Shown one piece after another: positions 168-57,547 of a stretch of DNA of 64,000 nucleotides (position 1 is the stretch's first letter; each line of letters begins with the position of its first letter). Under the pieces are notes generated by a model that was not told the origin of the DNA, searched no databases, and saw nothing but the letters and a program-made list of their open reading frames with translations. A program made the position numbers and the translations under genes. Origin of the DNA: a virus; IMG/VR virus record IMGVR_UViG_3300044655_000744, positions 35,583 to 99,582 of that record; one strand, given 5' to 3'.

Positions 168-242
168 TGGTTGCGGTCGCAGGACTCGAACCTGGTCTCG
201 AGCTTATGAGGCTCGCGAGCTGCCAATTGCTCCACCACCGCG
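168..242 (-). tRNA. tRNA-Met (CAU), initiator-like ends
   Basis: The minus strand folds as a tRNA with anticodon loop CUCAUAA and an encoded CCA at 170-168. The first base is C and the base opposite is A (C1/A72), which is the unpaired end typical of bacterial initiator tRNA. The three G-C pairs expected at the bottom of an initiator anticodon stem are not there (stem CGAGC/GCUCG). It therefore mixes initiator and elongator features. It has its own promoter at 256-284. Confidence 0.85.
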
Positions 243-255
243 TCAGTATAATAAT

Positions 256-284
256 ATTATATAGTCAACACACACTATTGTCAA
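256..284 (-). promoter_or_regulatory. sigma70-type promoter for tRNA-Met
   Basis: On the minus strand TTGACA is followed after 17 bases by TATAAT, a perfect match to the host housekeeping consensus. The -10 box ends 13 bases before the tRNA-Met 5' end, so the primary transcript would have a leader of about six bases. The promoter lies just downstream of the YkuK-like gene. Confidence 0.85.
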
Positions 285-289
285 CCTAT

Positions 290-760
290 TTATGCTGCTA
301 ATACGTGATGTAAACGGTCTGCAGCATAACTAGCGGCCCAGGCGTTGGGTTTAACCATTGGGATAACATTACAAGTACCGCGAATGTAACCAATTGCCTG
401 TGTTACTACACAGCTCGAACCGTGCGCTTCGTTTGGATTGATATCCAAGTGAACAGCAACATCGCGCCCTTCTAATACTTCGTGTAATTTCAAATATAAT
501 TCTGAAATTTTATATACTTCGTTCATTAGACGCATACTTGGTCGATTGCGCTTTTGGTCGTAATCTACTTCGGTTGATGTTTCACCAAATATCTTACAAC
601 CATGTTTCCCATCAATATGAACTACAATAGCCAAAGTATATTCGGCATGCCATTGTCCGTTCTTACGAAAGCGTGTACTATCGCCGCCAATGTATATTTT
701 AGTTTCTGGAGTTTGTGCGTTAATAAAATCACGCACTTCGTCGAAATTCAGTTTTTTCAT
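290..760 (-). CDS. YkuK/DUF458-type RNase H-like protein
   Basis: This 156-residue protein begins, after a short helix, with a strand-Asp motif (YIGGDS, Asp27) typical of RNase H folds. A second acidic site is HLDINPNE near residues 104-111, and an Asp lies near the C-terminus in YAADRL. This pattern matches the YkuK (DUF458) family of RNase H-like proteins, which are common in T4-like phages but of unproven function; a nuclease role is inferred from the fold. The ATG at 760 has AAAGGG upstream. It follows the phosphatase gene in the same minus-strand accessory group. Confidence 0.7.
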   Translation of the reverse strand: MKKLNFDEVRDFINAQTPETKIYIGGDSTRFRKNGQWHAEYTLAIVVHIDGKHGCKIFGETSTEVDYDQKRNRPSMRLMNEVYKISELYLKLHEVLEGRDVAVHLDINPNEAHGSSCVVTQAIGYIRGTCNVIPMVKPNAWAASYAADRLHHVLAA

Positions 761-785
761 ATACTGCCCTTTATTGTATTTACTA

Positions 786-1205
786 TTACACTAAATCCAA
801 GTAGTACATTAACTTATGTTTTACCATAAGGTTTGGTATACGATATTTTTCTGTATCTCTAAACCCAATCATATGCCCAACTTCTGCCACGGCACCACTA
901 CGTGCTACCCCCATATGGCAGTGTACCACTACATTCATACTTTCGTTCCATGCTTCTTTTAATGCTTCGGCAATACCCTTAGCATCAGCGTTGGTAATGG
1001 CTGCCGCATAGTAAAACTTTTCGCTGTCGCTTTCTTCTACATCTAAGAAGTAGAACTGATGTACTCGGCGAAAGTCATATTTAGGCTTTGGAAACTCTAC
1101 ACCAGGATCTACGATCTGTATTAGCATACTGTTGAAACCTGGGTCGTAATGATAGCCCTTGCGTACATCATCAAGACTGATATTTTCAATCCACGGTTTC
1201 ATCAT
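786..1205 (-). CDS. cysteine-based tyrosine/dual-specificity phosphatase-like protein
   Basis: This 139-residue protein carries the phosphatase P-loop HCHMGVARSG (His95, Cys96, Arg102), i.e. the HC-x5-R signature. An upstream Asp in FLDVEES is a candidate general acid. The family removes phosphate from protein tyrosine/serine or from RNA 5' ends; the substrate here is unknown. The start at 1205 overlaps the end of the preceding 86-residue gene by 20 bases, so the two are probably translated together from the promoter at 1453-1481. Confidence 0.8.
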   Translation of the reverse strand: MMKPWIENISLDDVRKGYHYDPGFNSMLIQIVDPGVEFPKPKYDFRRVHQFYFLDVEESDSEKFYYAAAITNADAKGIAEALKEAWNESMNVVVHCHMGVARSGAVAEVGHMIGFRDTEKYRIPNLMVKHKLMYYLDLV

Positions 1206-1446
1206 CGTGCTCTCCTCGCTTTCTTAGTTCATCTATTAGGCCATTATAGGCCAAGGTTTCTTCTTGCCCCAATGCTTCTAACATATTGACGCAACTTATG
1301 ATATGTGCCGTTTCCATGTCTCTAATTAACAATATCTTGCGATCTTTAGTTAACCATGTCATACGATGCTGTCTGCGATAATTCTTAAAGTCCGCATTAT
1401 TTGGCGTGCTTAGTATATCCCAGGCTAATTGTTGTTCTTCGGTCAT
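1186..1446 (-). CDS. hypothetical protein, 86 residues, probable leaderless early gene
   Basis: This small protein is basic in its first half, with an acidic C-terminal tail, and I do not recognise it. The ATG at 1446 lies only six bases after a perfect TATAAT box, placing the expected transcription start on the A of the start codon. There is no ribosome binding site. The gene overlaps the phosphatase gene downstream by 20 bases, suggesting a two-gene early operon. A regulatory or host-interaction role is possible but not shown by the sequence. Confidence 0.65.
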   Translation of the reverse strand: MTEEQQLAWDILSTPNNADFKNYRRQHRMTWLTKDRKILLIRDMETAHIISCVNMLEALGQEETLAYNGLIDELRKRGEHDDETVD

Positions 1447-1452
1447 AAGCGT

Positions 1453-1481
1453 ATTATACAGTCATTTAGTTGACTTGTCAA
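1453..1481 (-). promoter_or_regulatory. sigma70 consensus promoter, leaderless arrangement
   Basis: Minus-strand TTGACA, a 17-base spacer and TATAAT form a perfect consensus. The -10 box ends at 1453 and the ATG of the 86-residue gene begins at 1446, leaving six bases between them. The +1 base would coincide with the start codon. Confidence 0.85.
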
Positions 1482-1482
1482 A

Positions 1483-1557
1483 TGGGGTGTCTAACGGGGT
1501 TCGAACCCGTGATGCAGGAATCACAATCCTGAGTGTTACCACTACACTATAGACACC
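1483..1557 (-). tRNA. tRNA-His (GUG)
   Basis: The anticodon loop is UUGUGAU with stem CAGGA/UCCUG. The gene encodes the extra G at position -1 (1557) facing C73 (1486), the identity element of tRNA-His, and an encoded CCA at 1485-1483. All seven acceptor pairs form. It lies directly downstream of the permuted tRNA-like element. Confidence 0.97.
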
Positions 1558-1647
1558 ATAGAGGTTGCTGTTTTACCATTAAACTACCGTAGGCTGCTAT
1601 TTCGCTTGACCTACAAGCTGGACTCGAACCAGCAAAGCAACGTAAAC
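1558..1647 (-). ncRNA. circularly permuted tRNA-like element
   Basis: The 90 bases between tRNA-Gly and tRNA-His hold a complete tRNA in permuted order. On the minus strand: 3' anticodon strand GUUGC (1641-1637), a 3-base variable loop, T arm GCUGG-UUCGAGU-CCAGC (1633-1617), 3' acceptor UUGUAGG (1616-1610), a 16-base linker (1609-1594), 5' acceptor CCUACGG (1593-1587), U8-A9, D arm GUUU-AAUGGUA-AAAC (1584-1570), A26, then 5' anticodon strand GCAAC (1568-1564). The acceptor pairs over 7 bp (two G-U) and the anticodon stem over 5 bp. U8, A14, G18G19, A21, U33, T-loop UUC and A58 are all present. The molecule's ends fall in the anticodon loop, and no CCA follows the discriminator position. It could be a functional permuted tRNA, a nicked decoy, or a fossil of a tandem duplication. 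Confidence 0.8.
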
Positions 1648-1721
1648 TGGAGCGGGTAGCGAGAATTGAACTCGCAATTCAACTTTGGCAAAGTCGTAGG
1701 TTACCATTACATCATACCCGC
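1648..1721 (-). tRNA. tRNA-Gly (GCC)
   Basis: The acceptor is GCGGGUA/UACCCGC, the anticodon loop UUGCCAA reads GCC, and the CCA is encoded at 1650-1648. Its 3' end abuts the permuted tRNA-like element without a spacer. Confidence 0.97.
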
Positions 1722-1730
1722 ATTATAATC

Positions 1731-1799
1731 TTACTGAGCAGTAATATTTTCATTGATTTAGTCAGTTTTGACTAGAAATGTTACTGAGCAGTAATATTT
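1731..1799. repeat. duplicated palindrome in the tRNA-Gly/tRNA-Arg spacer
   Basis: An identical 19-base sequence, TTACTGAGCAGTAATATTT, occurs at 1731-1749 and 1781-1799. Its first 14 bases (TTACTGAGCAGTAA) form a perfect palindrome. Between the copies lies a further inverted repeat, TAGTCA-gttt-TGACTA. The spacer would form three successive hairpins and could mark RNA processing or a recombination scar. Confidence 0.85.
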
Positions 1800-1873
1800 G
1801 GAGCCCTGTGAGGGAATCGAACCCCCATCCTGAGTTTCGAAGACTCTAATTCTATCCGTTGAACTAACAGGGC
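1799..1873 (-). tRNA. tRNA-Arg (UCG)
   Basis: The acceptor is GCCCUGU with a matching 3' strand, the loop CUUCGAA gives anticodon UCG, and the CCA is encoded at 1801-1799. The encoded CCA overlaps the last base of the second 19-base repeat. Confidence 0.95.
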
Positions 1874-1876
1874 ATT

Positions 1877-1953
1877 TGGAGCAACGGGTCGGATTTGAAC
1901 CGACGTACAAAGGATTTGCAGTCCCTGCCATTGGGCCACTCTGGTACCGTTGC
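1877..1953 (-). tRNA. tRNA-Cys (GCA)
   Basis: The acceptor GCAACGG pairs with CCGUUGC, the loop CUGCAAA gives anticodon GCA, the discriminator is U as in most Cys tRNAs, and the CCA is encoded. It is three bases upstream of tRNA-Arg(UCG). Confidence 0.96.
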
Positions 1954-1968
1954 GTAATGTACATAATT

Positions 1969-2004
1969 ATGTATATTAAAGGTTTTTATATGTTTAATAT
2001 ACAT
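1969..2004. repeat. 12-bp inverted repeat in tRNA spacer
   Basis: ATGTATATTAAA (1969-1980) and TTTAATATACAT (1993-2004) are exact reverse complements separated by 12 bases. The hairpin lies between tRNA-Cys and tRNA-Trp in the same presumed precursor transcript. It has no T-run that would make it a terminator, so processing is more likely than termination. Confidence 0.8.
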
Positions 2005-2022
2005 CTTTATATACTTTATGTT

Positions 2023-2096
2023 TGGCTCCGGTGGAGAGAATCGAACTCCCACTAATGGTTTTGGAGACCATCGCACTGCCATTATACTACACCGGA
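2023..2096 (-). tRNA. tRNA-Trp (CCA)
   Basis: The acceptor UCCGGUG pairs with CACCGGA, the loop CUCCAAA gives anticodon CCA, the discriminator is G, and the CCA end is encoded at 2025-2023. Confidence 0.96.
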
Positions 2097-2101
2097 ATAT
2101 T

Positions 2102-2177
2102 TGGCTGGCAAACCTGGGCTCGAACCAGGGACACGCGGATTAACAGTCCGCTGCTCTACCAACTGAGCTATATGCCA
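2102..2177 (-). tRNA. tRNA-Asn (GUU)
   Basis: The acceptor UGGCAUA pairs with UUUGCCA allowing one imperfect pair, the loop CUGUUAA gives anticodon GUU, and the CCA is encoded at 2104-2102. Confidence 0.96.
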
Positions 2178-2202
2178 AAAAAACTACTAAAGGATTTAAA
2201 AC

Positions 2203-2279
2203 TGGCCTGCCCAGAGAGATTCGAACTCCCGACACCAAAGGTAGAAGCTTTGTGCTCTATCCAGCTGAGCTATGGGCAG
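2203..2279 (-). tRNA. tRNA-Arg (UCU)
   Basis: The acceptor CUGCCCA pairs with UGGGCAG, the stem CAAAG/CUUUG encloses loop CUUCUAC giving anticodon UCU, and the CCA is encoded. It is the second Arg tRNA in the cluster and serves AGA/AGG codons. Confidence 0.96.
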
Positions 2280-2287
2280 AGAAACTT

Positions 2288-2364
2288 TGGCGCGGTGTAT
2301 GGGGCTCGAACCCACGGCCTCCAACGTGACAGGCTGGCGCTCTAACCAACTGAGCTAACACCGC
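2288..2364 (-). tRNA. tRNA-Asp (GUC)
   Basis: The acceptor GCGGUGU pairs with ACACCGC, the loop CUGUCAC gives anticodon GUC, the discriminator is G as expected for Asp, and the CCA is encoded at 2290-2288. Confidence 0.96.
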
Positions 2365-2369
2365 ATTAC

Positions 2370-2453
2370 TGGTGGAGTGTCCTGGGATCGAACCAGGCGT
2401 GCCATAGGCGGCGGATTTACAGTCCACTGCATCACCGTTGATGCTTCCACTCC
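2370..2453 (-). tRNA. tRNA-Tyr (GUA)
   Basis: The gene has a long variable arm as expected for Tyr, loop CUGUAAA giving anticodon GUA, acceptor GGAGUGG, and encoded CCA at 2372-2370. Confidence 0.95.
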
Positions 2454-2475
2454 TCGACGCTCTCATATGAAAGCG

Positions 2476-2547
2476 TATAATAAAATACACTGGTTGACCC
2501 TTGAAATCAGAAGACGCTTTGCTCTTGACGCAGTGTACTTTATTATA
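2476..2547 (-). repeat. 17-bp inverted repeat forming a long hairpin
   Basis: TATAATAAAATACACTG (2476-2492) and CAGTGTACTTTATTATA (2531-2547) are complementary except at one position, which becomes a G-U pair in minus-strand RNA. The 38-base loop is itself GC-richer. It lies between the terminator at 2651-2683 and tRNA-Tyr. It could be a processing hairpin or a structured leader of the tRNA precursor. Confidence 0.75.
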
Positions 2548-2647
2548 ACAAGTATTTTCTGTTCACATAAGAACATGCCATCCACTTGTCCGCCCGTTTA
2601 CAAACTATCTTTAATGTGCCTTGTTGGACCTCGTTTCCGAGACACAT
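2543..2647 (-). CDS. possible 34-residue ORF
   Basis: A short ATG-to-TAA frame encodes a basic, Cys-containing peptide with a protein-like composition (it includes GTLKIVCKRADKWM). The ATG follows directly on the T-run of the upstream terminator and no ribosome binding site is visible. Its 3' end runs into the hairpin at 2476-2547. Low confidence. Confidence 0.2.
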   Translation of the reverse strand: MCLGNEVQQGTLKIVCKRADKWMACSYVNRKYLL

Positions 2648-2650
2648 AAA

Positions 2651-2683
2651 ACAAAAAACCCTAAGTCTTTCGATCTTAGGGTT
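2651..2683 (-). terminator. rho-independent terminator
   Basis: On the minus strand, AACCCTAAG and CTTAGGGTT form a 9-bp stem around a 9-base loop, followed by a run of six T. It ends transcription of the 43-residue gene at 2718-2849 before the tRNA cluster. Confidence 0.85.
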
Positions 2684-2717
2684 CTTAATTAAAATTAACT
2701 TATATTATATATAAACT

Positions 2718-2849
2718 CTAATTAAGATCCCCATAGATACTATTCGGTGTGCGATCATTGCCTAATGTCTCAATCGCTGACCAATAAGACATCGTGGCAA
2801 GTGCGCACACTTGTTTTGATATATTAAATTGATGTAGCTGGTTAAACAT
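2718..2849 (-). CDS. hypothetical protein, 43 residues
   Basis: The predicted peptide is polar and ends ...NSIYGDLN, with a central ALATMSYWSAIETLG segment that could form an amphipathic helix. It is framed by a perfect sigma70 promoter (2893-2921), two T4-type late promoter boxes (2936-2956) and a strong terminator (2651-2683), which argues that it is a real transcription unit. An AAAGGA sequence lies about 16 bases upstream of this ATG. An alternative upstream ATG (2860) opens a six-codon frame only. I do not recognise the product. Confidence 0.5.
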   Translation of the reverse strand: MFNQLHQFNISKQVCALATMSYWSAIETLGNDRTPNSIYGDLN

Positions 2850-2892
2850 TTTGCTTTCGCATTCCTTTAATTAATTTCTTACTATAACAACT

Positions 2893-2921
2893 ATTATACA
2901 GTCTATTTATTAGCCTGTCAA
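2893..2921 (-). promoter_or_regulatory. sigma70 consensus promoter
   Basis: TTGACA, a 17-base spacer and TATAAT on the minus strand match the consensus perfectly. It drives the 43-residue gene with a leader of about 37 bases. Confidence 0.85.
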
Positions 2922-2935
2922 CCTGTTTGTTAATT

Positions 2936-2956
2936 TATTTATATCTTTTATTTATA
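2936..2956 (-). promoter_or_regulatory. two tandem T4-type late promoter boxes
   Basis: Minus-strand TATAAATA occurs at 2956-2949 and again at 2943-2936, exact matches to the T4 late promoter. The first overlaps the stop codon of the 57-residue gene. Together with the sigma70 promoter just downstream, they suggest expression both early and late. Confidence 0.6.
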
Positions 2957-3125
2957 CTTCTAAATCTGTCCCTGGTATTACTTCAACTTCTTTTGGTTTC
3001 TTTTTAGGTGCGCCCCAGAAGTTAGTTGTTGCTGTTTCACTTTGTACACCGCGAGCGATTTGTTTGATTTCTCCGCCGGTGGCTAAAAACTCTTTCATTG
3101 CTTGTTCATATTCTTCGTTTGTCAT
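2952..3125 (-). CDS. small conserved-type phage protein, 57 residues
   Basis: The protein starts MTNEEYEQAMKEFLA and has a Lys-rich stretch (APKKKPKE) before an acidic end. Short proteins with this kind of start (MTNEEYE.A..EFL..GG) occur widely in T4-like marine phages; this is from memory and no function is known. The ATG at 3125 is preceded by AAAGGAC at a good distance. It lies directly downstream of tRNA-Met(3140-3218). Confidence 0.7.
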   Translation of the reverse strand: MTNEEYEQAMKEFLATGGEIKQIARGVQSETATTNFWGAPKKKPKEVEVIPGTDLEV

Positions 3126-3139
3126 ACTTGTCCTTTATT

Positions 3140-3218
3140 TGGTGGGCCTGGTGAGATTTGAACTCACTGTCTTTCGGTTATGAGCCGAGTGCTTATACCA
3201 GGTTTAAGCTTCGGGCCC
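3140..3218 (-). tRNA. tRNA-Met (CAU), elongator-like
   Basis: The loop CUCAUAA gives anticodon CAU. The acceptor GGGCCCG/CAGGCCC has a paired G1-C72 end (one internal C-A mismatch), so this is the elongator type or possibly an Ile tRNA with modified C34. The CCA is encoded at 3142-3140. Confidence 0.9.
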
Positions 3219-29067: not shown

Positions 29068-29418
29068 ATGCAATGGCGAAAATTATGTGAGGTTTGCGGC
29101 AAAAAACCCGCAGCGATCAACTATAAACGTGAAGGCGTAACCTATTATAGGACTCGTTGTGACAGTTGTATACGTAAAAAGAAAAATAAAGCCGCACCTG
29201 TGCCAAGTTGGCACAAGGCAGGTTACAAAAAGAAACCGCACTGTGAAAAGTGCGGCTTTAAGGCAAAATATAAAGAGCAACTATTTGTTTACTACACTGA
29301 TGGTAATCTTAACAATAATAGTCTATCCAATTTAAGAACAATATGTGCCAACTGCCAATACGAAGTAGCTCGTGACGGGCTAGGCTGGCGCCAGGGCGAC
29401 CTCGTTCCCGACTTTTAA
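29068..29418 (+). CDS. HNH endonuclease-like zinc-binding protein
   Basis: This 116-residue protein has four Cys pairs (CEVC, CDSC, CEKC, CANC). Its C-terminal half reads VYYTDGNLNNNSLSNLRTIC, matching the D-x-x-x-x-N-N-x-x-x-N-L core of HNH nucleases. The expected first His of the motif appears to be replaced by Tyr (YYTDG), so activity is uncertain. A near-identical layout is common in T4-like marine phages beside gp18. The 3' end overlaps the convergent dNMP kinase gene by 39 bases. Confidence 0.75.
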   Translation: MQWRKLCEVCGKKPAAINYKREGVTYYRTRCDSCIRKKKNKAAPVPSWHKAGYKKKPHCEKCGFKAKYKEQLFVYYTDGNLNNNSLSNLRTICANCQYEVARDGLGWRQGDLVPDF

Positions 29419-49500: not shown

Positions 49501-50781
49501 TGCATCAAGTACAATGTTTCCGTTAGAGGCAGTAAACGTCATGCCCGTTCCTGACGATATAGTTGTATTAGACACTGTTAAGTTACCGATGGTGCTAGAG
49601 ATAGCCAAGTTAGCTGCGTAGGTTACCCGTCCTTTGTCGTCAACAACAATTTGCGGAATAGTGCCACTGCTACCGTAGGTGCCTGCTGTCACACCAGTGG
49701 TCGTTAACCCAACATAAACATTACTGTTTGCGCCATACCCAACAACATCGCCGTTAACAATAATGTTGCTGTTACTAGTTAATATTTCAGCACCTAATAC
49801 ATCTATACTTGACGCAGAAATTTGATTTGCGATAATAATATTAGATGTTATTGAATTAGTAACTGCTATACTGTTAACATTACTACCAATATTTAAATCT
49901 CCGCTGAGTGGCGTGATTGTGGTACCAACTACACTTAGATTTCCAACTTGCTCAAGAGTTAAATTATTAGCCGAAGTTATTCTACCGGCAGAGTCAACTG
50001 CTAATTGAGCTATATTTGTGTTTGACCCGTAGGTTCCTGCCAATACGCCAGTACTGCTCAGTGCTACATAAACATTAGTATATGTGCCTGTCCCGACTGC
50101 GTCGCCGTTAACTGAAATGATTGAATTAGCTGTTAAAACTCGATAGTTTGCTTCGTACAATTCGTCAGCATTAATAACACCGCCGTTAGTATTACCTGTG
50201 ATAGAAATATTTCCACCAATGGTGATACTATCAACATTAATATTACCAAGGTTGCTGATATAGGGTTGATTTGAAGTTAATACTGTTCCATTGATATTTA
50301 AGGCAGTGATCGTATTAGCATACAAAGTATTCCACCATAAACTAGTATTGCCTATCGAACCAGAGGCATTTGATGCCGGCAATAGTTGACCCGATACTAT
50401 TACATTGCCGCTTACATCCAATGATATCAATGAACCTAAGCTAGTTATGTTTGGTTGTGCGTTGGTTAACAGAACACCTGATAAAGTTGTTGACACAAAG
50501 CTGCCAGCAACTATACTGTTTGCGTATACAGTATTCCACCAATTGGCGGGACTGCCTATGTTGTGTAATAGATTGCCGGATGTTAGTAAGTCACCACTGG
50601 TAATTAATATATTACCAGCAACTTCTAATTCTTGTGATGGGGACTCTGTGTTAACGCCTAAACGGAAATTGGCAAAGTCCATGTAGACTAGGGCATTACC
50701 AGTCGTGGTAAACTGTAGATCTATGCCTTGTCTATCTAGATCGGGTAATAGTGAATATCCCGGAACACGACTAATTGCCAT
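46561..50781 (-). CDS. long tail fibre with C-terminal intramolecular chaperone (peptidase S74)
   Basis: This 1406-residue fibre begins with VYMDFANFRLGVNTESPSQEL-type repeats and continues with NLTSVG/NVSATNLTG beta-repeats and TGALVVTGGVGIGGNLY units. It ends with a peptidase S74/endosialidase chaperone domain: YYSSDSRLKENVRDI, FGVIAQDVAQVLPEAV, LAVDYEKMCALAFAAIKELQ. In this family the domain trimerises the fibre and cuts itself off at the Ser of the SDSRLKE motif. The upstream late box is GATAAATA (50807-50800). Confidence 0.9.
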   Translation of the reverse strand: MAISRVPGYSLLPDLDRQGIDLQFTTTGNALVYMDFANFRLGVNTESPSQELEVAGNILITSGDLLTSGNLLHNIGSPANWWNTVYANSIVAGSFVSTTLSGVLLTNAQPNITSLGSLISLDVSGNVIVSGQLLPASNASGSIGNTSLWWNTLYANTITALNINGTVLTSNQPYISNLGNINVDSITIGGNISITGNTNGGVINADELYEANYRVLTANSIISVNGDAVGTGTYTNVYVALSSTGVLAGTYGSNTNIAQLAVDSAGRITSANNLTLEQVGNLSVVGTTITPLSGDLNIGSNVNSIAVTNSITSNIIIANQISASSIDVLGAEILTSNSNIIVNGDVVGYGANSNVYVGLTTTGVTAGTYGSSGTIPQIVVDDKGRVTYAANLAISSTIGNLTVSNTTISSGTGMTFTASNGNIVLDAQGTGVVQIIGSDAIGIPAGDTASRPGYPEIGYTRFNTEAGSIEYWDGTDWAVPGFSTVTSETINPDGSANTFVLSSNTTTYGVFVSINGTVQQPVTAYNVHDDNQITFTEVPHDTDVIEVRHFAAGVTVTALQYGNTKVQATATDVEITGNLVPVANVTYDLGSPTHWWKDLYLSGNSIYLGGMAITNNNGVLTSTVNGNLTVLQSADPTLAQDVVTLNYLQTQLSGIDTTVIQADDSSIQIIDSGTSAGNIVIAVDGSNIATIGANAVSITRTVEVNGNISANNFNYANGVSILDAVYSNAAVQSGAIASATTAITTANTAMKGYVDGQLSTANTAMKGYVDGQVSTLTSNAAAQAGTLATIQSTYAQLAGATFTGAVVAPNITLTAALAITSGGTGATSSSEALNNLFPSGETSGYVLKTSGPGSYYWAAESGASSTVGTTISTSRTYKTATAGQTVFTGLGTYTPGAGQLRIYINGVRQFDSAYTETNSSAVTLSTGVSSGTVLLAEVDAYTDFTSYASDVVFSNVGGISATNVQDALAELDTEKAALTGASFTGNVTTTGNVSITSTLRSSSSSTGALVVTGGVGIGGNLYIGGNLQVAGNVTYFDSNNVTFNDAMIYLADDNTGDVLDIGFISSFTNPSYQHTGFVRDATDGVWKLFANVVGEPTTTVDFTNANYSNLRIGNLTSVGGTFTGNVSAGNLSATNLTGTLTTAAQTNITSVGTLTGLTVSGAPVPNANVSVNLGSTSAWWSTFYANTYVGRTATFTGNITAGNVSATNLAGAITSSQVTTALGFTPYNATNPSGYLSTAVTSAVAGTGVSVSAGTGAVTFSIGQAVATSSSVQFGSLGVGTAASGTTGEIRATNNITAYYSSDSRLKENVRDIPDALDKVTAIGGKLFDWTDEYIADHGGLDDYFMRKADFGVIAQDVAQVLPEAVRTRDDGYLAVDYEKMCALAFAAIKELQQQVQLLEQQIKGK

Positions 50782-50799
50782 TTATTGGTCCTCTTTTAA

Positions 50800-50807
50800 T
50801 ATTTATC
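50800..50807 (-). promoter_or_regulatory. T4-type late promoter box (GATAAATA)
   Basis: It lies 18 bases upstream of the 1406-residue fibre gene with AGAGGACC between. Confidence 0.6.
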
Positions 50808-50813
50808 TGAGGA

Positions 50814-51245
50814 CTAATTGACTATCGTATTACCATAATTATGAACGATTGTTATAGCTGCCCCTGGACTAGGTGCACTTGAAAATTTAATAGCAGTGTT
50901 ACCTAAAAACTCATAGTTAGTAGACGGTATCTGATATACTGTACCTACATGAACTAATACCTCTGCTTCGCGGCCGGCAGCGTAGCTAACTGTCATTGAA
51001 TTGATAACCGTGTTAGCGCCATCACCTATAGCACTGTTATCCACAAATATATTAGATACACCTTCGCGTGCCACTGCTTGCCACGTTGATCCGTTTGGTG
51101 TGTATTCTAATTTACTTGTACTAGAATTCCATCGAACTTGGCCAGCTACCGCATGATCAGGAGTAATTGTTGACGAACCTTTGTTAGGTAACCCTATCGC
51201 ATAACTGCCAGTTTTAATAACTGTGTTCTTTAGCATGTGTCCCAT
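50814..51245 (-). CDS. small fibre-type structural protein, 143 residues
   Basis: It contains the wall-binding-like beta motif VRWNSSTSKLEYTPNGSTW and a C-terminal unit (VHVGTVYQIPSTNYEFLGN...IKFSSAPSPGAAITI) that repeats the 'ING..Q.P...Y.......I.F...P' domain of the two long fibres. It is probably a minor tail fibre or baseplate protein. I keep the ATG at 51245 because GGGA lies eight bases before it. Confidence 0.6.
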   Translation of the reverse strand: MGHMLKNTVIKTGSYAIGLPNKGSSTITPDHAVAGQVRWNSSTSKLEYTPNGSTWQAVAREGVSNIFVDNSAIGDGANTVINSMTVSYAAGREAEVLVHVGTVYQIPSTNYEFLGNTAIKFSSAPSPGAAITIVHNYGNTIVN

Positions 51246-51246
51246 A

Positions 51247-51558
51247 TTAGATTCCCACGTAGCTTACTGTAGCAGTAACTGATGTTCCAGAATCGATATT
51301 AGCTTTAATTTGGTCATCGTGACCTAATACTAATTTTTCCATGTCTACTACAAATGTGTCACCGCTGGCAATTTGTACATTGTTATATACTATCACCGTA
51401 GCATTAGCTGCTAGCCCCGGTGCTGGAATAACCCATAGCGAAAGATTTCTAGCTGTCGCGTCAGTATTACAAAAGTACATTGTTGATACTACTGTATTAC
51501 CTGAACTAGCATAGATATTTGCTGGGGATGTTGATAATGTTGTATTTCTTACTGACAT
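51247..51558 (-). CDS. small virion-type beta protein, 103 residues
   Basis: This all-beta protein of the kind LSTSPANIYASSGNTVVSTMYFCN...VVDMEKLVLGHDDQIKANIDSG is common among phage tail and decoration proteins ('tail fibre-adjacent' hypothetical). It is encoded one base before the 143-residue gene in the same transcript. Exact role unknown. Confidence 0.6.
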   Translation of the reverse strand: MSVRNTTLSTSPANIYASSGNTVVSTMYFCNTDATARNLSLWVIPAPGLAANATVIVYNNVQIASGDTFVVDMEKLVLGHDDQIKANIDSGTSVTATVSYVGI

Positions 51559-51567
51559 GGTTTATTC

Positions 51568-52116
51568 CTATAAAATTAAACTGAGACCAAATGCCCTAGT
51601 TTTTGTAATTAATTCCTGGTTCGCTACTACTTCGTTCACTACATATAATCCACTTTGGCCACCGCTGACTGAACCGCTATATAGATTAACTTTACCTGTA
51701 ACACCTGTTGGTAGGTAAGTAGGAGCATTAAATTGAATATTAAAACTATTTGTTTCTAAGTTGCCGCCTAGTTGCGGACTAGTATCTTGTACTACCTCTG
51801 AAATTCCGCCACCAGTTAAGGCACTGTAGCCCACGTCGATGTTGCTAGAAATTTCCCAAGAGTCCGATGTTTCATTCCATCGAATGGCTGCGTTGCCGAG
51901 TGTACCTCTATCTATATAAAGATGAGCGTCGACCGGGCTAGCGCCACCAACCCCTGCTGCTGTTTCACCAGCATTAAGGGTGATGTCTCTATCCTCTACA
52001 TTTGTATTAGTTACTGTGGTTGTATCGTATACACCTTTAACGTGTAAATTACCAGTAAGATATACGTCGGTAGTATCGATTGTATATGATGAATTAAGTT
52101 TTTTAACTGTTGCCAT
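51568..52116 (-). CDS. fibre-type structural protein, 182 residues
   Basis: The start MATVKKLNSSYTIDTTDVYL with LTGNLHVKGVYDTTTVTNTNVEDRDITL is like the N-terminal attachment region of the long fibres. IRWNETSDSWEIS is another copy of the shared beta-hairpin motif. It may be a short fibre or fibre connector. A CATAAATA late box (52145-52138) lies 21 bases upstream. Confidence 0.6.
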   Translation of the reverse strand: MATVKKLNSSYTIDTTDVYLTGNLHVKGVYDTTTVTNTNVEDRDITLNAGETAAGVGGASPVDAHLYIDRGTLGNAAIRWNETSDSWEISSNIDVGYSALTGGGISEVVQDTSPQLGGNLETNSFNIQFNAPTYLPTGVTGKVNLYSGSVSGGQSGLYVVNEVVANQELITKTRAFGLSLIL

Positions 52117-52137
52117 TCTAATTTATCCAGTTTTTAT

Positions 52138-52145
52138 TATTTATG
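52138..52145 (-). promoter_or_regulatory. T4-type late promoter box (CATAAATA)
   Basis: It lies 21 bases before the ATG at 52116 and just downstream of the terminator for the 317-residue gene. Confidence 0.6.
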
Positions 52146-52168
52146 CTATATGTCTGAAGTGTGTATTC

Positions 52169-52199
52169 AAAAAAAATAGCACCCAAAGGTGCTATTTTT
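52169..52199 (-). terminator. rho-independent terminator
   Basis: AAAAATAGCACC and GGTGCTATTTTT form a perfect 12-bp stem around a four-base loop, with T-runs on both strands. It ends the 317-residue capsid-associated gene. Confidence 0.9.
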
Positions 52200-52212
52200 A
52201 CTTTGACTAAAA

Positions 52213-53166
52213 TTAGTCGTTTGATGAAATTTTAACTGTTGTGCCTGCTACTGCAGCACCGGTTGAAGTCCATCTAGCATGGCTGTTTGCAGTAAACTGT
52301 ACACCTGCGGTACCACCAATTGCAGCTGGGAATAATAGAGCAGTACGTGATTCTAATTTACCAACTAAGTAAACTCCACCATCACTGTCTGTAGCAAGTA
52401 ATGTCATTTCACCTGCGGCTGTTGGGCCACCTGCAGCAATAACTTGCGCTACTGTTGGACTATTAACACCATTAACCCCTGTTGGAACTAAACGAACTAC
52501 CGCAGTACCGTCAGTATTAGTAACTCTGTAACGACGTGAACTACGTTGTGATACAATGTCTGCTTGTGAGCCGATAGTGCCGTTAGTTGTCCATGCGTTA
52601 GCTTGGATTGTGTTAGCAGTAGTAATTACACTAGCGCGAACTGCTGTTAAACTACCGCTTACACCGTTATCCCAGAATGTAATACCTGCTGCAGATTTAG
52701 CCGCATTGTTTGTGGCACTCATTGTAACAACGCCTGTACCGTATTGTTCAATTGCTACAATTGTTGTACCTGCTGTGAATCCTGTATTAGCAGTCATACC
52801 AACATATAACCCTGCCACGCTTGAAACTGTAACGTTAGCGTTTGCTGGATATGCTGTTGTACCAGTAACTACAACGTTACCTGGTTTAACTAAACTAATA
52901 ACAGGTGCTGTTGTATAGCCTGTGCCTGCTTCAGTGATTGATGTTGTGTCAATACGACCATTGGCTGTACTTATACCAACAGTAATTGTAGCGCGAGTGC
53001 CACCAATTGGACTAACTGCTACTGTAGCCGTTAAACCTTGTGAATAAGCTGAACCACGATTTGTTAATGTAATGCTTGATAGACCTTCACCACCAGCATC
53101 ACTGTAGGTTAGACTGTCATTAACATTATCTGAACCAAAAAACTTTTTCTTAATAGGACGTCCCAT
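52213..53166 (-). CDS. probable capsid-associated structural protein, 317 residues
   Basis: It starts MGRPIKKKFFGSDN, which I recall from virion structural proteins encoded next to gp23 in cyanophages. The rest is Thr/Ala/Gly-rich beta sequence with repeated ITLTNRGSAYSQG/ITEAGTGYTTAP units. A decoration or capsid-vertex protein is plausible. It has its own late promoter (53253-53246), a roughly 75-base leader with two small hairpins (GCGTT-ct-AACGC and GCGGT-gggg-ACCGC), a ribosome binding site AGGAG and a terminator, which suggests high expression. Confidence 0.65.
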   Translation of the reverse strand: MGRPIKKKFFGSDNVNDSLTYSDAGGEGLSSITLTNRGSAYSQGLTATVAVSPIGGTRATITVGISTANGRIDTTSITEAGTGYTTAPVISLVKPGNVVVTGTTAYPANANVTVSSVAGLYVGMTANTGFTAGTTIVAIEQYGTGVVTMSATNNAAKSAAGITFWDNGVSGSLTAVRASVITTANTIQANAWTTNGTIGSQADIVSQRSSRRYRVTNTDGTAVVRLVPTGVNGVNSPTVAQVIAAGGPTAAGEMTLLATDSDGGVYLVGKLESRTALLFPAAIGGTAGVQFTANSHARWTSTGAAVAGTTVKISSND

Positions 53167-53245
53167 TTGTTTCTCCTTTTATAATTAGCGTTCTAACGCC
53201 TACGCGGTGGGGACCGCATAAACTCTCATTCAAGAGCGAACAAAG

Positions 53246-53253
53246 TATTTATC
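53246..53253 (-). promoter_or_regulatory. T4-type late promoter box (GATAAATA)
   Basis: It drives the 317-residue protein with an unusually long leader that can form two GC-rich hairpins. Confidence 0.6.
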
Positions 53254-53258
53254 GTATA

Positions 53259-53287
53259 TTGACTTTTACTCTAAAAGATAGTACAAT
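53259..53287 (+). promoter_or_regulatory. sigma70 promoter of the inserted early gene
   Basis: Plus-strand TTGACT, 17-base spacer, TACAAT. It is the only clear host-type promoter in the structural region and points away from the neighbouring late gene. Confidence 0.8.
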
Positions 53288-53314
53288 AGCACTTCGTTAG
53301 TTAAGGAGAGTATG

Positions 53315-53641
53315 ATGACTTGGTATAATGCAAAATACAAAGGAATTAAGCCCGCTTTTAGAGGCGGAGATACAAACTATAACACTATTAATGCTACTAA
53401 GAAATATGTAGAGTATTTTTTAGACATACAAGATATGAACGACTTACTTAGAACTACTAAAAGTTTTGATATTAAGATGGATTTGTTATATTGTTTAGAC
53501 AAAGCAGAAAGCAAGCGTGCGTGGAATTTTAAGCATCCTAACTTTTGTCAAACAGATGCTAACACGTTACTACAAGCTGTAAGAAATGCTAAACGTAAGG
53601 ATGGTTACGATATTACAGAGCGGTTTGAATATTATGCGTAG
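53315..53641 (+). CDS. hypothetical protein, 108 residues, in moron-like cassette
   Basis: The gene has a host-type promoter, an AAGGAG ribosome binding site six bases before the ATG at 53315, and a terminator immediately after the stop (53647-53672). The product is basic (MTWYNAKYKGIKPAFRGG..., ending ERFEYYA) with no recognised domain. It runs against the surrounding late genes, next to gp23. This self-contained design suggests an independently acquired early gene, perhaps acting on the host. Confidence 0.7.
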   Translation: MTWYNAKYKGIKPAFRGGDTNYNTINATKKYVEYFLDIQDMNDLLRTTKSFDIKMDLLYCLDKAESKRAWNFKHPNFCQTDANTLLQAVRNAKRKDGYDITERFEYYA

Positions 53642-53646
53642 CCAAC

Positions 53647-53672
53647 AAAAAAGCCCCTTGCGGGGCTTTTTT
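53647..53672. terminator. bidirectional rho-independent terminator
   Basis: AAAAAAGCCCC-ttgc-GGGGCTTTTTT ends both the plus-strand 108-residue gene and the minus-strand gp23 transcript. Confidence 0.92.
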
Positions 53673-53697
53673 TAATCGTACCTTTAAGGTTTTAATC

Positions 53698-54873
53698 TTA
53701 TTGGAATGATAGGTTGCTTACACCAACTTCTTCTAAGTAGTCAGCTGCGTTACCTAGAGATGAAGCAGTGTTGCTTAACTCTACATAACCATAACGTGTC
53801 ATGAAGCCTACTACTGGTTCAAAAGTAGCTGGATCAAGAACAACACCACTGCTCATTAATGGAACGTATGGGCAGTAGAACGCTGCAGCGTCAGCTTCTG
53901 AAGAACCTTTGTAACCTACTAATACTGGTGTGCTGTCTGAAGCATAACCATCAACGTAGATCTTCATAGCGCCATTCAATGTACCAACAAATTTAGTGTT
54001 TGTTGGAGCTTCAAATGTACCTTCTGTACTACGAGCAAAAGCTGAAGTAGTAGCAGATTGAAGAACTGTTAATGCTGCTGCAGATACAACAGCCCAGTTA
54101 CCAGCGCCACGACGTGTACGTTGAGCGATCAAGTTAGCTGCGCGGTTAATTAAAACAGCAAGAGCAGCGTGCTCGTCACCTACGAATGTAGCAGTACCAG
54201 AAACAGTAGCTTGGTTGTAGCTATATGTTGAGTATGAAAGAGCACGTAGACTAGCTAAGATTTCTTGATCAATTTCAACAGTAATTTCTTGAGCCAAAGC
54301 TGCCATGATTTCTGCTTCAACATCTAAACCGTGCATAGATTGTGCGTCTTGAGCTGCCTCAAAAGTCCAACGTGCGCTTAGTTTACGTGTTTTAGCTTCA
54401 ACAACTTGTTTCAAGATTTGAACGTTGATACGGTTACCTGGAACGCCTTCAAGTGAGCTAGTTGAAGTAGCTTTACCTGTTGATGCGCCTGAGTAAGCAG
54501 TAGCAATGCGGAATGGTGATAATGCTTCATCACCAGCTGTAGTAGCATCAGCACCTGAAGTACCTGCACTTACGCTATCAGCGTAACGTACACGTAATGT
54601 GTGGATTTGTGCTACTGGGCCAGTCATAGGTTGTACACCAACGATTTCGTTAGCGATAACTGTTGGCATAACACGACGAATTACCGGAAGGATTACGCGG
54701 TTTAGTGTAGCAACGTTACCTACTGCAGTTGCGCCACTAGATGCTGTTTCCATCAAGTGCTTCTTAGTGTTTTCTAAAATTACAGCCATTGTGGTTCTTT
54801 TCGAACCTTGTAGACCTTCTAACAGGGCGTCTTTGGTCTCGTTCCAACGGCCTTCTAATAGTTGGGTTGTCAT
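53698..54873 (-). CDS. 23: gp23 major capsid protein
   Basis: This 391-residue protein has the T4-like capsid pattern (MPTVIANEIVGVQPMTGPVAQI, LSARWTFEAAQDAQSMHGLD, GAGNWAVVS). The N-terminal delta region contains KKHLME/TASSG, so gp21 should cut after Glu42 by the L-x-E rule. The protein is shorter than T4 gp23 (521) and lacks most of the insertion domain, as in other marine T4-like phages. It assembles as hexamers around the gp22 scaffold. A bidirectional terminator follows. Confidence 0.95.
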   Translation of the reverse strand: MTTQLLEGRWNETKDALLEGLQGSKRTTMAVILENTKKHLMETASSGATAVGNVATLNRVILPVIRRVMPTVIANEIVGVQPMTGPVAQIHTLRVRYADSVSAGTSGADATTAGDEALSPFRIATAYSGASTGKATSTSSLEGVPGNRINVQILKQVVEAKTRKLSARWTFEAAQDAQSMHGLDVEAEIMAALAQEITVEIDQEILASLRALSYSTYSYNQATVSGTATFVGDEHAALAVLINRAANLIAQRTRRGAGNWAVVSAAALTVLQSATTSAFARSTEGTFEAPTNTKFVGTLNGAMKIYVDGYASDSTPVLVGYKGSSEADAAAFYCPYVPLMSSGVVLDPATFEPVVGFMTRYGYVELSNTASSLGNAADYLEEVGVSNLSFQ

Positions 54874-54903
54874 TTCTTTATCTTCCTTTTATAAAAGTTT
54901 GTA

Positions 54904-56004
54904 TTACTTTAGCCCTGCTAAACGCTTAATGTCAACAACATTGTTGTCGATTACTTGAGCGTCTGTTTTAGCAGATTTATCACCAGTTACTTCTACTTTA
55001 CTTTCAGCAAGCATTGGCTTGTCGGCCTTTGGCTTAGCTGGAGAGTTATTTAGAACTGCTGGTAGATACTTATCGTAAGCAGATCTGAGTTTCTCAGTCT
55101 GTACGTTTTCGAGTAGACTGGTCATTATCGCAGCTTTCTCTTTATTTAGTGGTCCTAATAATTCTGTTAGTGTGTCCTTACGGCCAGCACTTTCAGTGAT
55201 TACACGGATTTCTTTTTCTTTAGATTCAACTAAAGTTTCTTTTTCAGCTATTGCTTTTTTACTTTCAGCAATGATAGCGTCTTTCTTAGCTAACTGTGCT
55301 TGAAGTTTAGCAAATTCTTTGTTCTCATTTAAGTGAGTAACAGCAAATTCACTAGCAAACGCTTCAAATAGGCGACGACCAAACATGTTCTCACGAGCCG
55401 CTTGGATATCTTCTTTTAGTTGGGTCAATTCTGTCCCTAGATTGGTTGCCACTGCTTCCTTAACAAGACGAGCACTACGGCCAATAAAGTCTTGTTGTAG
55501 AGCTGCTAATTTAGTTTTAGCTTCTGCTACAAGTTTAACTTTAGTTGCGATAACATCTTTCTTGTCTTGGTCAAACTCTTTGATCTCTTCAGCTAGCGCA
55601 CGGATAACAAATTTTTCTAACTTAGCAGTTGCTTCGTTTTGAATTTTGCGATCTGAACGTAGTTCTTTGATCTCTTCAGCTAGTTTAGTAACCATAAAGT
55701 TATTAAATTTGCCTGCGCTTTCAACCATGTGACGTTTAAAGTTCACACGATCTTCTGCTAGAGCTTGTTTCTCACTAGCGAACTCTTTAAGTTCGGCAGT
55801 AAGACTTTCAGTGACCATTTTGTCTAGAGCTTCAACCATTACTGTCTTGTCGTGATTGTAGCGACGAGCGAACTCTTCACGCAATTCAGCGCGAACAGTC
55901 TCACGTGCTTCATTAATTTGACTTTCCCAAGCTTCTGTAATAGCTTCTTGGGTAGCTTCATTAATGATGCCACTTTCTAACAATGGTTTGATAGCATCTA
56001 ACAT
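54904..56004 (-). CDS. 22: gp22 prohead scaffold protein
   Basis: This 366-residue, almost entirely helical and coiled-coil protein is rich in Glu, Lys and Ala (WESQINEARETVRAELREEF...). It lies between gp21 and gp23, the standard position of the scaffold. It ends IDNNVVDIKRLAGLK; this AGLK tail recurs in the 629-residue protein. The scaffold shapes the prohead and is then digested by gp21. Confidence 0.88.
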   Translation of the reverse strand: MLDAIKPLLESGIINEATQEAITEAWESQINEARETVRAELREEFARRYNHDKTVMVEALDKMVTESLTAELKEFASEKQALAEDRVNFKRHMVESAGKFNNFMVTKLAEEIKELRSDRKIQNEATAKLEKFVIRALAEEIKEFDQDKKDVIATKVKLVAEAKTKLAALQQDFIGRSARLVKEAVATNLGTELTQLKEDIQAARENMFGRRLFEAFASEFAVTHLNENKEFAKLQAQLAKKDAIIAESKKAIAEKETLVESKEKEIRVITESAGRKDTLTELLGPLNKEKAAIMTSLLENVQTEKLRSAYDKYLPAVLNNSPAKPKADKPMLAESKVEVTGDKSAKTDAQVIDNNVVDIKRLAGLK

Positions 56005-56013
56005 TGTGATCTC

Positions 56014-56652
56014 CTATTTAATTTTTAGATCTTTGATCAAGCGAGTAACTTGCTCTTTCAAATACTTCTGTACCTTTTGATCTGCGCTGGCTTCTTTTGC
56101 CATTTCGAATACCTTAGCACCACCACGCATATTCATCAGTCCTTCGTAAATCGCTGTTGGATACGCATTAGGTGCGCTTGGTTGCGCAACTACATCTACA
56201 GTGACTATTTCAAAATCACTGACTTTACCGTCACCTTCAACGTTGCCTGAGCCACGTGAACTAACGCCAAGTTTAACACCACTATCCAACATAGTCTGAA
56301 CTAACTGACCCATTGGAGTAGGTAAAATCTTTAATTTGCCGAAGCCGTTAGGACCGTCCATCCACATATCTGTAATCATGTGACTTACGCGGTCTAGATT
56401 AATCTTCAAATCATCAGGGTGATCTACTTCGCCTAAGACGCTGTAGCCACCCTTGATTTGTTCCATAATGCTAGAAACGGCTTTACCAATCTCATTTACA
56501 GGATATACTCGCTCATTGTGATTTTTGACACCACCTTGAATGAATATACCTTTCATGTAAAGATCTTTACCTTTACCGTCGTGACGGTCTTCTGTTAGAA
56601 CTTCCATTCTAGCAGCATCAAAGGTTAAGTTTTCTTTAAGATATAAAGCCAT
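56014..56652 (-). CDS. 21: gp21 prohead protease
   Basis: This 212-residue serine protease of the herpesvirus-assemblin-like/T4 type has catalytic His78 in VLGEVDHPDD and Ser131/132 in GVSSRGSG, with IVTVDVVAQPSAPNA following. It cleaves gp23, gp22 and internal proteins at L/I-x-E sites during head maturation. It is encoded directly before gp22. Confidence 0.92.
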   Translation of the reverse strand: MALYLKENLTFDAARMEVLTEDRHDGKGKDLYMKGIFIQGGVKNHNERVYPVNEIGKAVSSIMEQIKGGYSVLGEVDHPDDLKINLDRVSHMITDMWMDGPNGFGKLKILPTPMGQLVQTMLDSGVKLGVSSRGSGNVEGDGKVSDFEIVTVDVVAQPSAPNAYPTAIYEGLMNMRGGAKVFEMAKEASADQKVQKYLKEQVTRLIKDLKIK

Positions 56653-56665
56653 TATATTATCCTAA

Positions 56666-57547
56666 TTAACGTGCTAACGGGCTTTTAGTAGCTACAGGCA
56701 CTTTACCGTCTGTAGTTTGACCTTCGCCTGCTTTTGGTTTGTTTGCTGATGATAATGATTTAGTACCACCAGCTGTGTTTTGTACTTTACCAATTAAATC
56801 GCCTTTTGGTTTAACTGAACGATTAGGTGATTGGCCATCTGGGTTTTGATTTGCGCCGCCTTTAGCGATATTAGCAGATGAACCGCCCATATCAGTTTTA
56901 CCAGCTACAATACCTTTAGTGTTAATTGTTGCTGATTTACCAGCACCAACTTCGCCACCTTCAGTTTTTTGACCTTGATCAGCTACTTTTTCAACGTATT
57001 CACGAACAATAGATTCTTCCAAATCTTCTTCTTCTTCGTCTTCTTCTGTATCACATTCTTCAGCTTCGTAGAATTCTTCTTGAGCAACTTCTTCGCCGCC
57101 CATATCGTTACCCATTTCGTCGCCACCGAACATGTCAGCGTGTTCTGGTTCGTTTTCTTCGCCGGCCATTAAAGCATCAAATTCAGCTTTAAGTTCGTCA
57201 AGTGCTGACTCTAAGTCAGTAATGCGTTCTTCATCACTGGCGTGTTCTTCTTCGTGTGAGTCTAAATCGCCGCTATCATCAAAGTCGTTATCTAATTCTG
57301 AACCTTCTTCAGATCCAAATTCTTCTTCGCCTTCTTCTTCTTCGCTAATGCCTTCTTCGTCGACTTGAATTTCGTCAACTAGACCTTTAACTTGGTTACC
57401 GCCAAGATTTTCATCTAGGTCTGTTTCGTCGATAAGGCTTTCGTAAATGTCACGTGATTTTTCAACAACGATGTTGTGGAATAATTCACGAGCCTTGTCA
57501 GAATCATCATTAATGATGAATTCAATTAACTGTTCGTACTTGTTCAT
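56666..57547 (-). CDS. acidic prohead core protein (gp67/68 position)
   Basis: The N-terminal helix (MNKYEQLIEFIINDDSDKAREL) and VVEKSRDIYESL precede a long acidic region rich in Glu/Asp and a Gly/Lys/Asn-rich tail. Similar proteins occupy this position between gp20 and gp21 in T4-like marine phages and are thought to be part of the prohead core. The leader contains AAGGAG, a 9-bp inverted repeat (57570-57593) and a TGTAAATA late-like box. Confidence 0.75.
   Translation of the reverse strand: MNKYEQLIEFIINDDSDKARELFHNIVVEKSRDIYESLIDETDLDENLGGNQVKGLVDEIQVDEEGISEEEEGEEEFGSEEGSELDNDFDDSGDLDSHEEEHASDEERITDLESALDELKAEFDALMAGEENEPEHADMFGGDEMGNDMGGEEVAQEEFYEAEECDTEEDEEEEDLEESIVREYVEKVADQGQKTEGGEVGAGKSATINTKGIVAGKTDMGGSSANIAKGGANQNPDGQSPNRSVKPKGDLIGKVQNTAGGTKSLSSANKPKAGEGQTTDGKVPVATKSPLAR

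Follow-up and report, generated by a model that had tools for sequence, protein, structure and literature searches.

Gene shuffling among T4-type phages is reportedly accompanied by early promoters and stem-loops, and in the so-called PeSL cassettes the stem-loop and the early promoter are said to stand together as one composite between genes. These promoter/stem-loop cassettes (Arbiol 2010, Comeau 2014) are referred to here as cited in the available part of PMC4503421. A second kind of accessory gene is the moron, a lambdoid-type element in the definition given in the available part of PMC1524935, where most novel ORFs of T4-like phages are described as not moron-like in GC content, and where each of the six T4-like genomes compared has a predicted terminator following gene 23. 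In T4 itself, according to the accessible text of PMC2988022, the GIY-YIG endonuclease gene segD is placed between genes 23 and 24 in antisense orientation, near transcription terminators; no promoter of its own was found for it there, and none of the T4 endonuclease genes listed with their own promoters has one of the early type.

Here, we describe a small gene, ORF109, that occupies the same place and orientation beside gp23 as segD does in that text. Unlike segD, it has an early-type promoter, and searches of PHROGs, Pfam and NCBIfam gave it no nuclease match. It lies in a window of 64,000 nucleotides, bases 35583-99582 of a virus record totalling 99,582 bases. The portal, prohead protease and gp23 of the window match PHROG head families, with gp23, the major capsid protein (53698..54873, minus strand), assigned to PHROG 138 at E 3.1e-99. 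The nearest gp23s, at 61-68% amino-acid identity, are those of the large T4-like phages Sinorhizobium Phosso, Vibrio 2.275.O, Pseudomonas PA5oct and Cronobacter GAP32, whose records measure 287-469 kb. The virus is T4-like and probably a jumbo phage, the latter a status that we only infer because the record itself is probably a fragment.

ORF109 (53315..53641, plus strand, 108 aa) is flanked by two resident genes on the minus strand, gp23 and a 317-aa late gene (52213..53166) whose translation starts MGRP. An in-frame ATG at 53312 would extend the protein to 109 aa (ORF 53312-53641); the second ATG, at 53315, is most likely the true start because homologues begin M-T-W. Upstream lie a ribosome binding site, TAAGGAGAG (53302..53310, plus strand), and a sigma70-type promoter, TTGACT-17-TACAAT (53259..53287, plus strand), which is presumably early, and next to it, facing the other way, is the T4-type late promoter box GATAAATA of the 317-aa gene (53246..53253, minus strand). 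The initial annotation had claimed a moron-like cassette made of a 108-residue opposite-strand gene with its own sigma70 promoter, back-to-back with the late promoter, a ribosome binding site and a strong terminator. The gene, the ribosome binding site and the paired early and late promoters all stand, whereas the terminator, although a real hairpin, belongs to gp23.

The moron likeness therefore holds in part. Like a moron, ORF109 is one small gene inserted into a late region, and it has its own promoter and a patchy distribution among relatives. Its GC content is lower than that of the surroundings (33% in the cassette vs 40% in the window), which is only mildly unusual, 4.7% of 330-nt windows being equally low. 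Unlike a moron, it has no terminator of its own, as judged from empty sites, and uses that of gp23. Acquisition from a host is not supported either: neither 50,697 phage records nor GTDB genomes, the latter searched with two peptide patterns (113 stretches matched one of them, none encoding a relative), yielded a relative. The locus also departs from the PeSL composite: the early promoter precedes the gene and the stem-loop follows it, the latter being the resident terminator of a late gene.

With a probability of roughly 0.78, we consider ORF109 to be a dispensable, early-expressed accessory gene carried by a mobile unit of promoter, ribosome binding site and ORF in a fixed slot. Selection on the gene, conservation of its promoter, empty sites, exchange independent of gp23 and re-use of the slot are documented by sequence comparison; ORF109 is presumably dispensable in the phages that carry it. 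The slot would be bounded by the gp23 terminator on one side and by the late promoter and leader of the MGRP-type late gene on the other, with the early promoter, ribosome binding site and ORF as the mobile part. Host RNA polymerase would transcribe ORF109 early in infection, and later the phage late machinery would fire the opposite-direction promoter a few bases away. Because ORF109 points towards gp23, it would end at the symmetric gp23 terminator, which would stop transcripts from both sides. Through recombination in the conserved flanks, related phages would acquire, lose and swap such units. This arrangement suggests a way for a lytic T4-like phage to add an early gene within an otherwise undisturbed late head block, the newcomer bringing its promoter and borrowing the terminator of the capsid gene; and since the slot can be recognised by where it lies, its cargo could be screened for genes of host takeover or anti-defence.

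Relatives of ORF109 were found on 18 IMG/VR contigs at 69-100% amino-acid identity, and the same 18 were returned by an alignment-based search and by a search with another allele. Among the gp23 matches listed (the best 80 of at least 600), at least four close relatives with gp23 89-91% identical (L020, L022, L023 and L024) have an empty site, in which gp23 and the MGRP gene are separated by 163-166 bases vs 535 in the form seen in the window. All four retain the late box and the leader, have a hairpin equivalent to that of the window and lack the early promoter, so that the insert comprises promoter, ribosome binding site and ORF, at approximately 53254..53641 with a net gain of 369-372 bp. 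The presence/absence comparison proposed in the initial annotation thus gives a patchy pattern, and conservation of the gene in all relatives is contradicted by the four empty sites. The ORF109 stop codon sits at the insert junction, beside the bidirectional terminator of gp23 (53647..53673), a symmetric hairpin that folds on both strands at -15.8 and -17.2 kcal/mol. Because equivalents exist in all four empty sites (with an identical core in L020 and L022 and slight changes in L023 and L024), the hairpin is assigned to gp23 as a resident element outside the cassette.

The position of ORF109 is nearly constant, with its 3' end 63-65 nt from the last codon of gp23 in 16 of the 18 contigs; the exceptions are L018, in which another gene intervenes, and L019, which ends inside the ORF. 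Occupied and empty sites are intermixed on a gp23 tree of 30 rows, in which several forks are weak; L003, L005-L008, L010, L013, L019 and L021, being near-copies or incomplete, are not in the tree, nor are the loci numbered L040 and above. At the DNA level, identity in ORF109 shows almost no correlation with identity in gp23 (36 pairs, r = 0.19). L009 and L016 have gp23 genes that are 99.2% identical and ORF109 alleles that are just 78.6% identical, with a crossover within the last ~200 bp of gp23 and 100% identity from ~200 bases inside its 3' end, and L015 and L016 have ORF109 100% identical and gp23 88.6%. L014 and L018 have identical gp23 genes, yet L018 carries two extra inserts at the two joints, namely a minus-strand ORF between the late and early promoters and, between the ORF109 stop and the gp23 terminator, a plus-strand gene that has a sigma70-like promoter of its own. 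Judged from these alignments, the ORF109 cassette recombines independently of gp23. The minus-strand ORF of L018 (L018:3293-3952) encodes 219 aa and resembles a 2-oxoglutarate dioxygenase by eye, without a Pfam match.

Such exchange bears directly on the alternative that survives best, in which ORF109 is not a moving cassette but an old, vertically inherited gene of the clade with a needed early role and few losses. Strong purifying selection on ORF109 would suit a needed gene, as would the fact that it is known from the gp23-adjacent position alone (three IMG/VR searches found it at no other site), but exchange of alleles independently of gp23, the intermixing of empty and occupied sites on the gp23 tree and the occupation of the slot by other genes all argue in the opposite direction, and we regard this alternative as unlikely. 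As a mobile unit, ORF109 may nevertheless be an old resident that has been repeatedly lost rather than a recent arrival from elsewhere.

Use of the slot by other genes was followed through the exact core pattern of freshwater-2, the RNA family that the leader of the 317-aa gene resembles (see below), with at least 89 distinct occurrences. Among the matches listed, gp23 lies upstream on the same strand for 64 of the 89 cores, and 15 loci with 1.5 kb or more of upstream sequence showed none; across the 64 loci the gap from gp23 to the core is below 300 bases in 36 and 361-3844 bases in 28. Simple ORF callers, which overlook some genes, placed antisense genes with a Shine-Dalgarno sequence in 14 of these 28 occupied slots (19 ORFs, among the matches listed) and no antisense gene in the other 14, some of which hold genes on the gp23 strand. 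A terminator-like hairpin directly follows gp23 in all 14 slots with antisense genes. Sigma70 matches of at least 10/12 were present for 13 of the 15 antisense slot genes tested (7/7 ORF109 alleles and 6/8 others, the exceptions being L137 and L238) vs 0.3-6.7% of shuffles, the tested genes being not all independent since L184 and L215 have near-copies of one gene. Four further antisense ORFs outside the 15 (58, 58, 63 and 79 aa) gave no promoter on a first scan. More distant relatives, L048 and L072, carry DUF1127 genes in the same antisense place (Pfam E 2.6e-12 and 8.4e-12), the slot of L064 holds an antisense heptosyltransferase-like ORF with no visible promoter, and apart from the nuclease-like genes considered next, the remaining cargo consists of ORFs of 47-278 aa without an assigned family. 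By these comparisons the slot is a general feature of the sampled phages. Two TGC(G/A)CTGCA boxes, operator-like in look, precede the DUF1127 genes of L048 and L072.

Some of the cargo recalls segD, and a second alternative is that ORF109 derives from a segD-like homing-endonuclease invasion, as its cargo or its remnant. L011 has an antisense endoVII/HNH-like gene in the slot together with a homing-endonuclease-like gene on the gp23 strand beside gp23, L184 and L215 hold antisense 251-aa genes that by eye resemble the endoVII/HNH-like gene of L011, a Hef-like gene on the gp23 strand adjoins gp23 in PA5oct, and segD itself is antisense between genes 23 and 24 in the accessible text of PMC2988022. 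ORF109, however, matches no endonuclease family and has an early-type promoter of its own, a type absent from the promoters of T4 endonuclease genes in that same text, and such an origin is therefore quite improbable.

That ORF109 is a gene at all is best judged from its codons. All 36 pairs of nine alleles, compared over the first 92 codons, give dN/dS values of 0.015-0.247 (with dS near-saturated in a few pairs), and on this evidence it is a real gene under purifying selection, as the initial annotation had supposed. Its promoter is likewise supported by conservation. The pattern TTGAC[AT]-17-TA[TC]A[AC]T, whose end is separated from the start codon by 27-29 nt, occurs upstream of ORF109 at 10 of the 10 loci compared, nine caught by the pattern and one, L009 (TATACT), read by eye, and these represent 8 different sequences because L014, L018 and L019 have one in common. 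Mean identity among the 8 is 96% in the hexamer columns vs 70% in the spacer columns, a contrast that is somewhat flattering because the search pattern itself fixes most hexamer positions in nine loci. The promoter is very likely real, and the window alone does not go beyond chance in this respect, with 16 promoter-like sites within 50000-57000 vs 18.6 expected from shuffles. Strict TTGACW...TATAAT sites elsewhere in the window number 5 vs 0.12 expected, and all 5 lie outside the head block, which fits an early promoter type; the ORF109 promoter would then presumably fire early. The remaining alternative, a chance ORF, can be dismissed because selection on the codons already contradicts it and the promoter is retained at every locus compared, even though promoter- and terminator-like sites in the window alone are no commoner than in shuffles.

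The ORF109 protein has no match in Pfam or PADLOC. Candidate matches to PHROG 38558 (E 0.024), to the NCBIfam FliW model (15.5 bits vs a cut-off of 135) and to a PDB sequence (best E 0.57) were taken as chance, and AlphaFold models from two runs were unusable (mean pLDDT 47.6 and 46.9). Small early phage proteins that are dispensable and exchangeable often serve host takeover, counter-defence or exclusion, and the setting of ORF109, rather than the protein itself, suggests a possible role in host takeover, anti-defence or superinfection.

On the other side of the slot, the 317-aa late gene has a 5' leader (53164..53237, minus strand) that matches the freshwater-2 RNA (Rfam RF02980) with E 1.3e-6 in 231 bases, aligning to the entire 84-position model at 47.8 bits, just below the gathering score of 49.9. 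The cut-off is passed by 10 of the 12 related loci scanned (L126 and L144 fall below it). Across 19 related virus records, most of them picked because a freshwater-2 core was already known in them, 17 match at E <= 0.001 and 11 lie above the cut-off, and a match was found in 0 of 14 control genomes. Among the matches listed, an ORF starting MGRP follows the core in 88 of the 89 occurrences (no start was found in L202), the T4-type box TAAATA occurs within 45 nt upstream of 88 of the 89 (not L170) vs 6% of letter shuffles, and both features accompany 87. Taken by itself, the 8-mer ATAAATAC shows no enrichment across the window (3 observed vs 6.1 expected). Five of the 19 records match freshwater-2 without the exact core, with TAAATA just upstream in all five and an MGRP start in four; in L027 the ORF starts MARG. 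In four of the five, by eye, both halves of the second stem have changed (GCTG/CAGC, GCAG/CTGC), which supports pairing.

The Rfam entry describes freshwater-2 as cis-regulatory only, and the present comparison connects it with T4-type late boxes and phage MGRP genes; a partial literature search by name found no paper, a weak negative. We think it rather probable that there is a T4-type docking slot, formed by the bidirectional gp23 terminator and by the late promoter, freshwater-2 leader and MGRP gene, in which terminator-less early-promoter ORFs dock antisense, and that freshwater-2 makes up practically the entire 5' UTR in one class of T4-type late mRNAs. The leader would tie the RNA family to one kind of virus, one type of promoter and one class of target genes, so that its function becomes testable, and the link to late boxes and MGRP genes may interest specialists more than the cassette.

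Elsewhere in the window, a second small antisense ORF stands amid late genes (29068-29418, plus strand); it encodes a Cys-rich protein of 116 aa that is HNH-like by eye and gave sub-threshold zinc-ribbon matches only in Pfam. Ten tRNA genes above the Rfam cut-off are located at 172-3218 on the minus strand, near four strict sigma70-type promoters.
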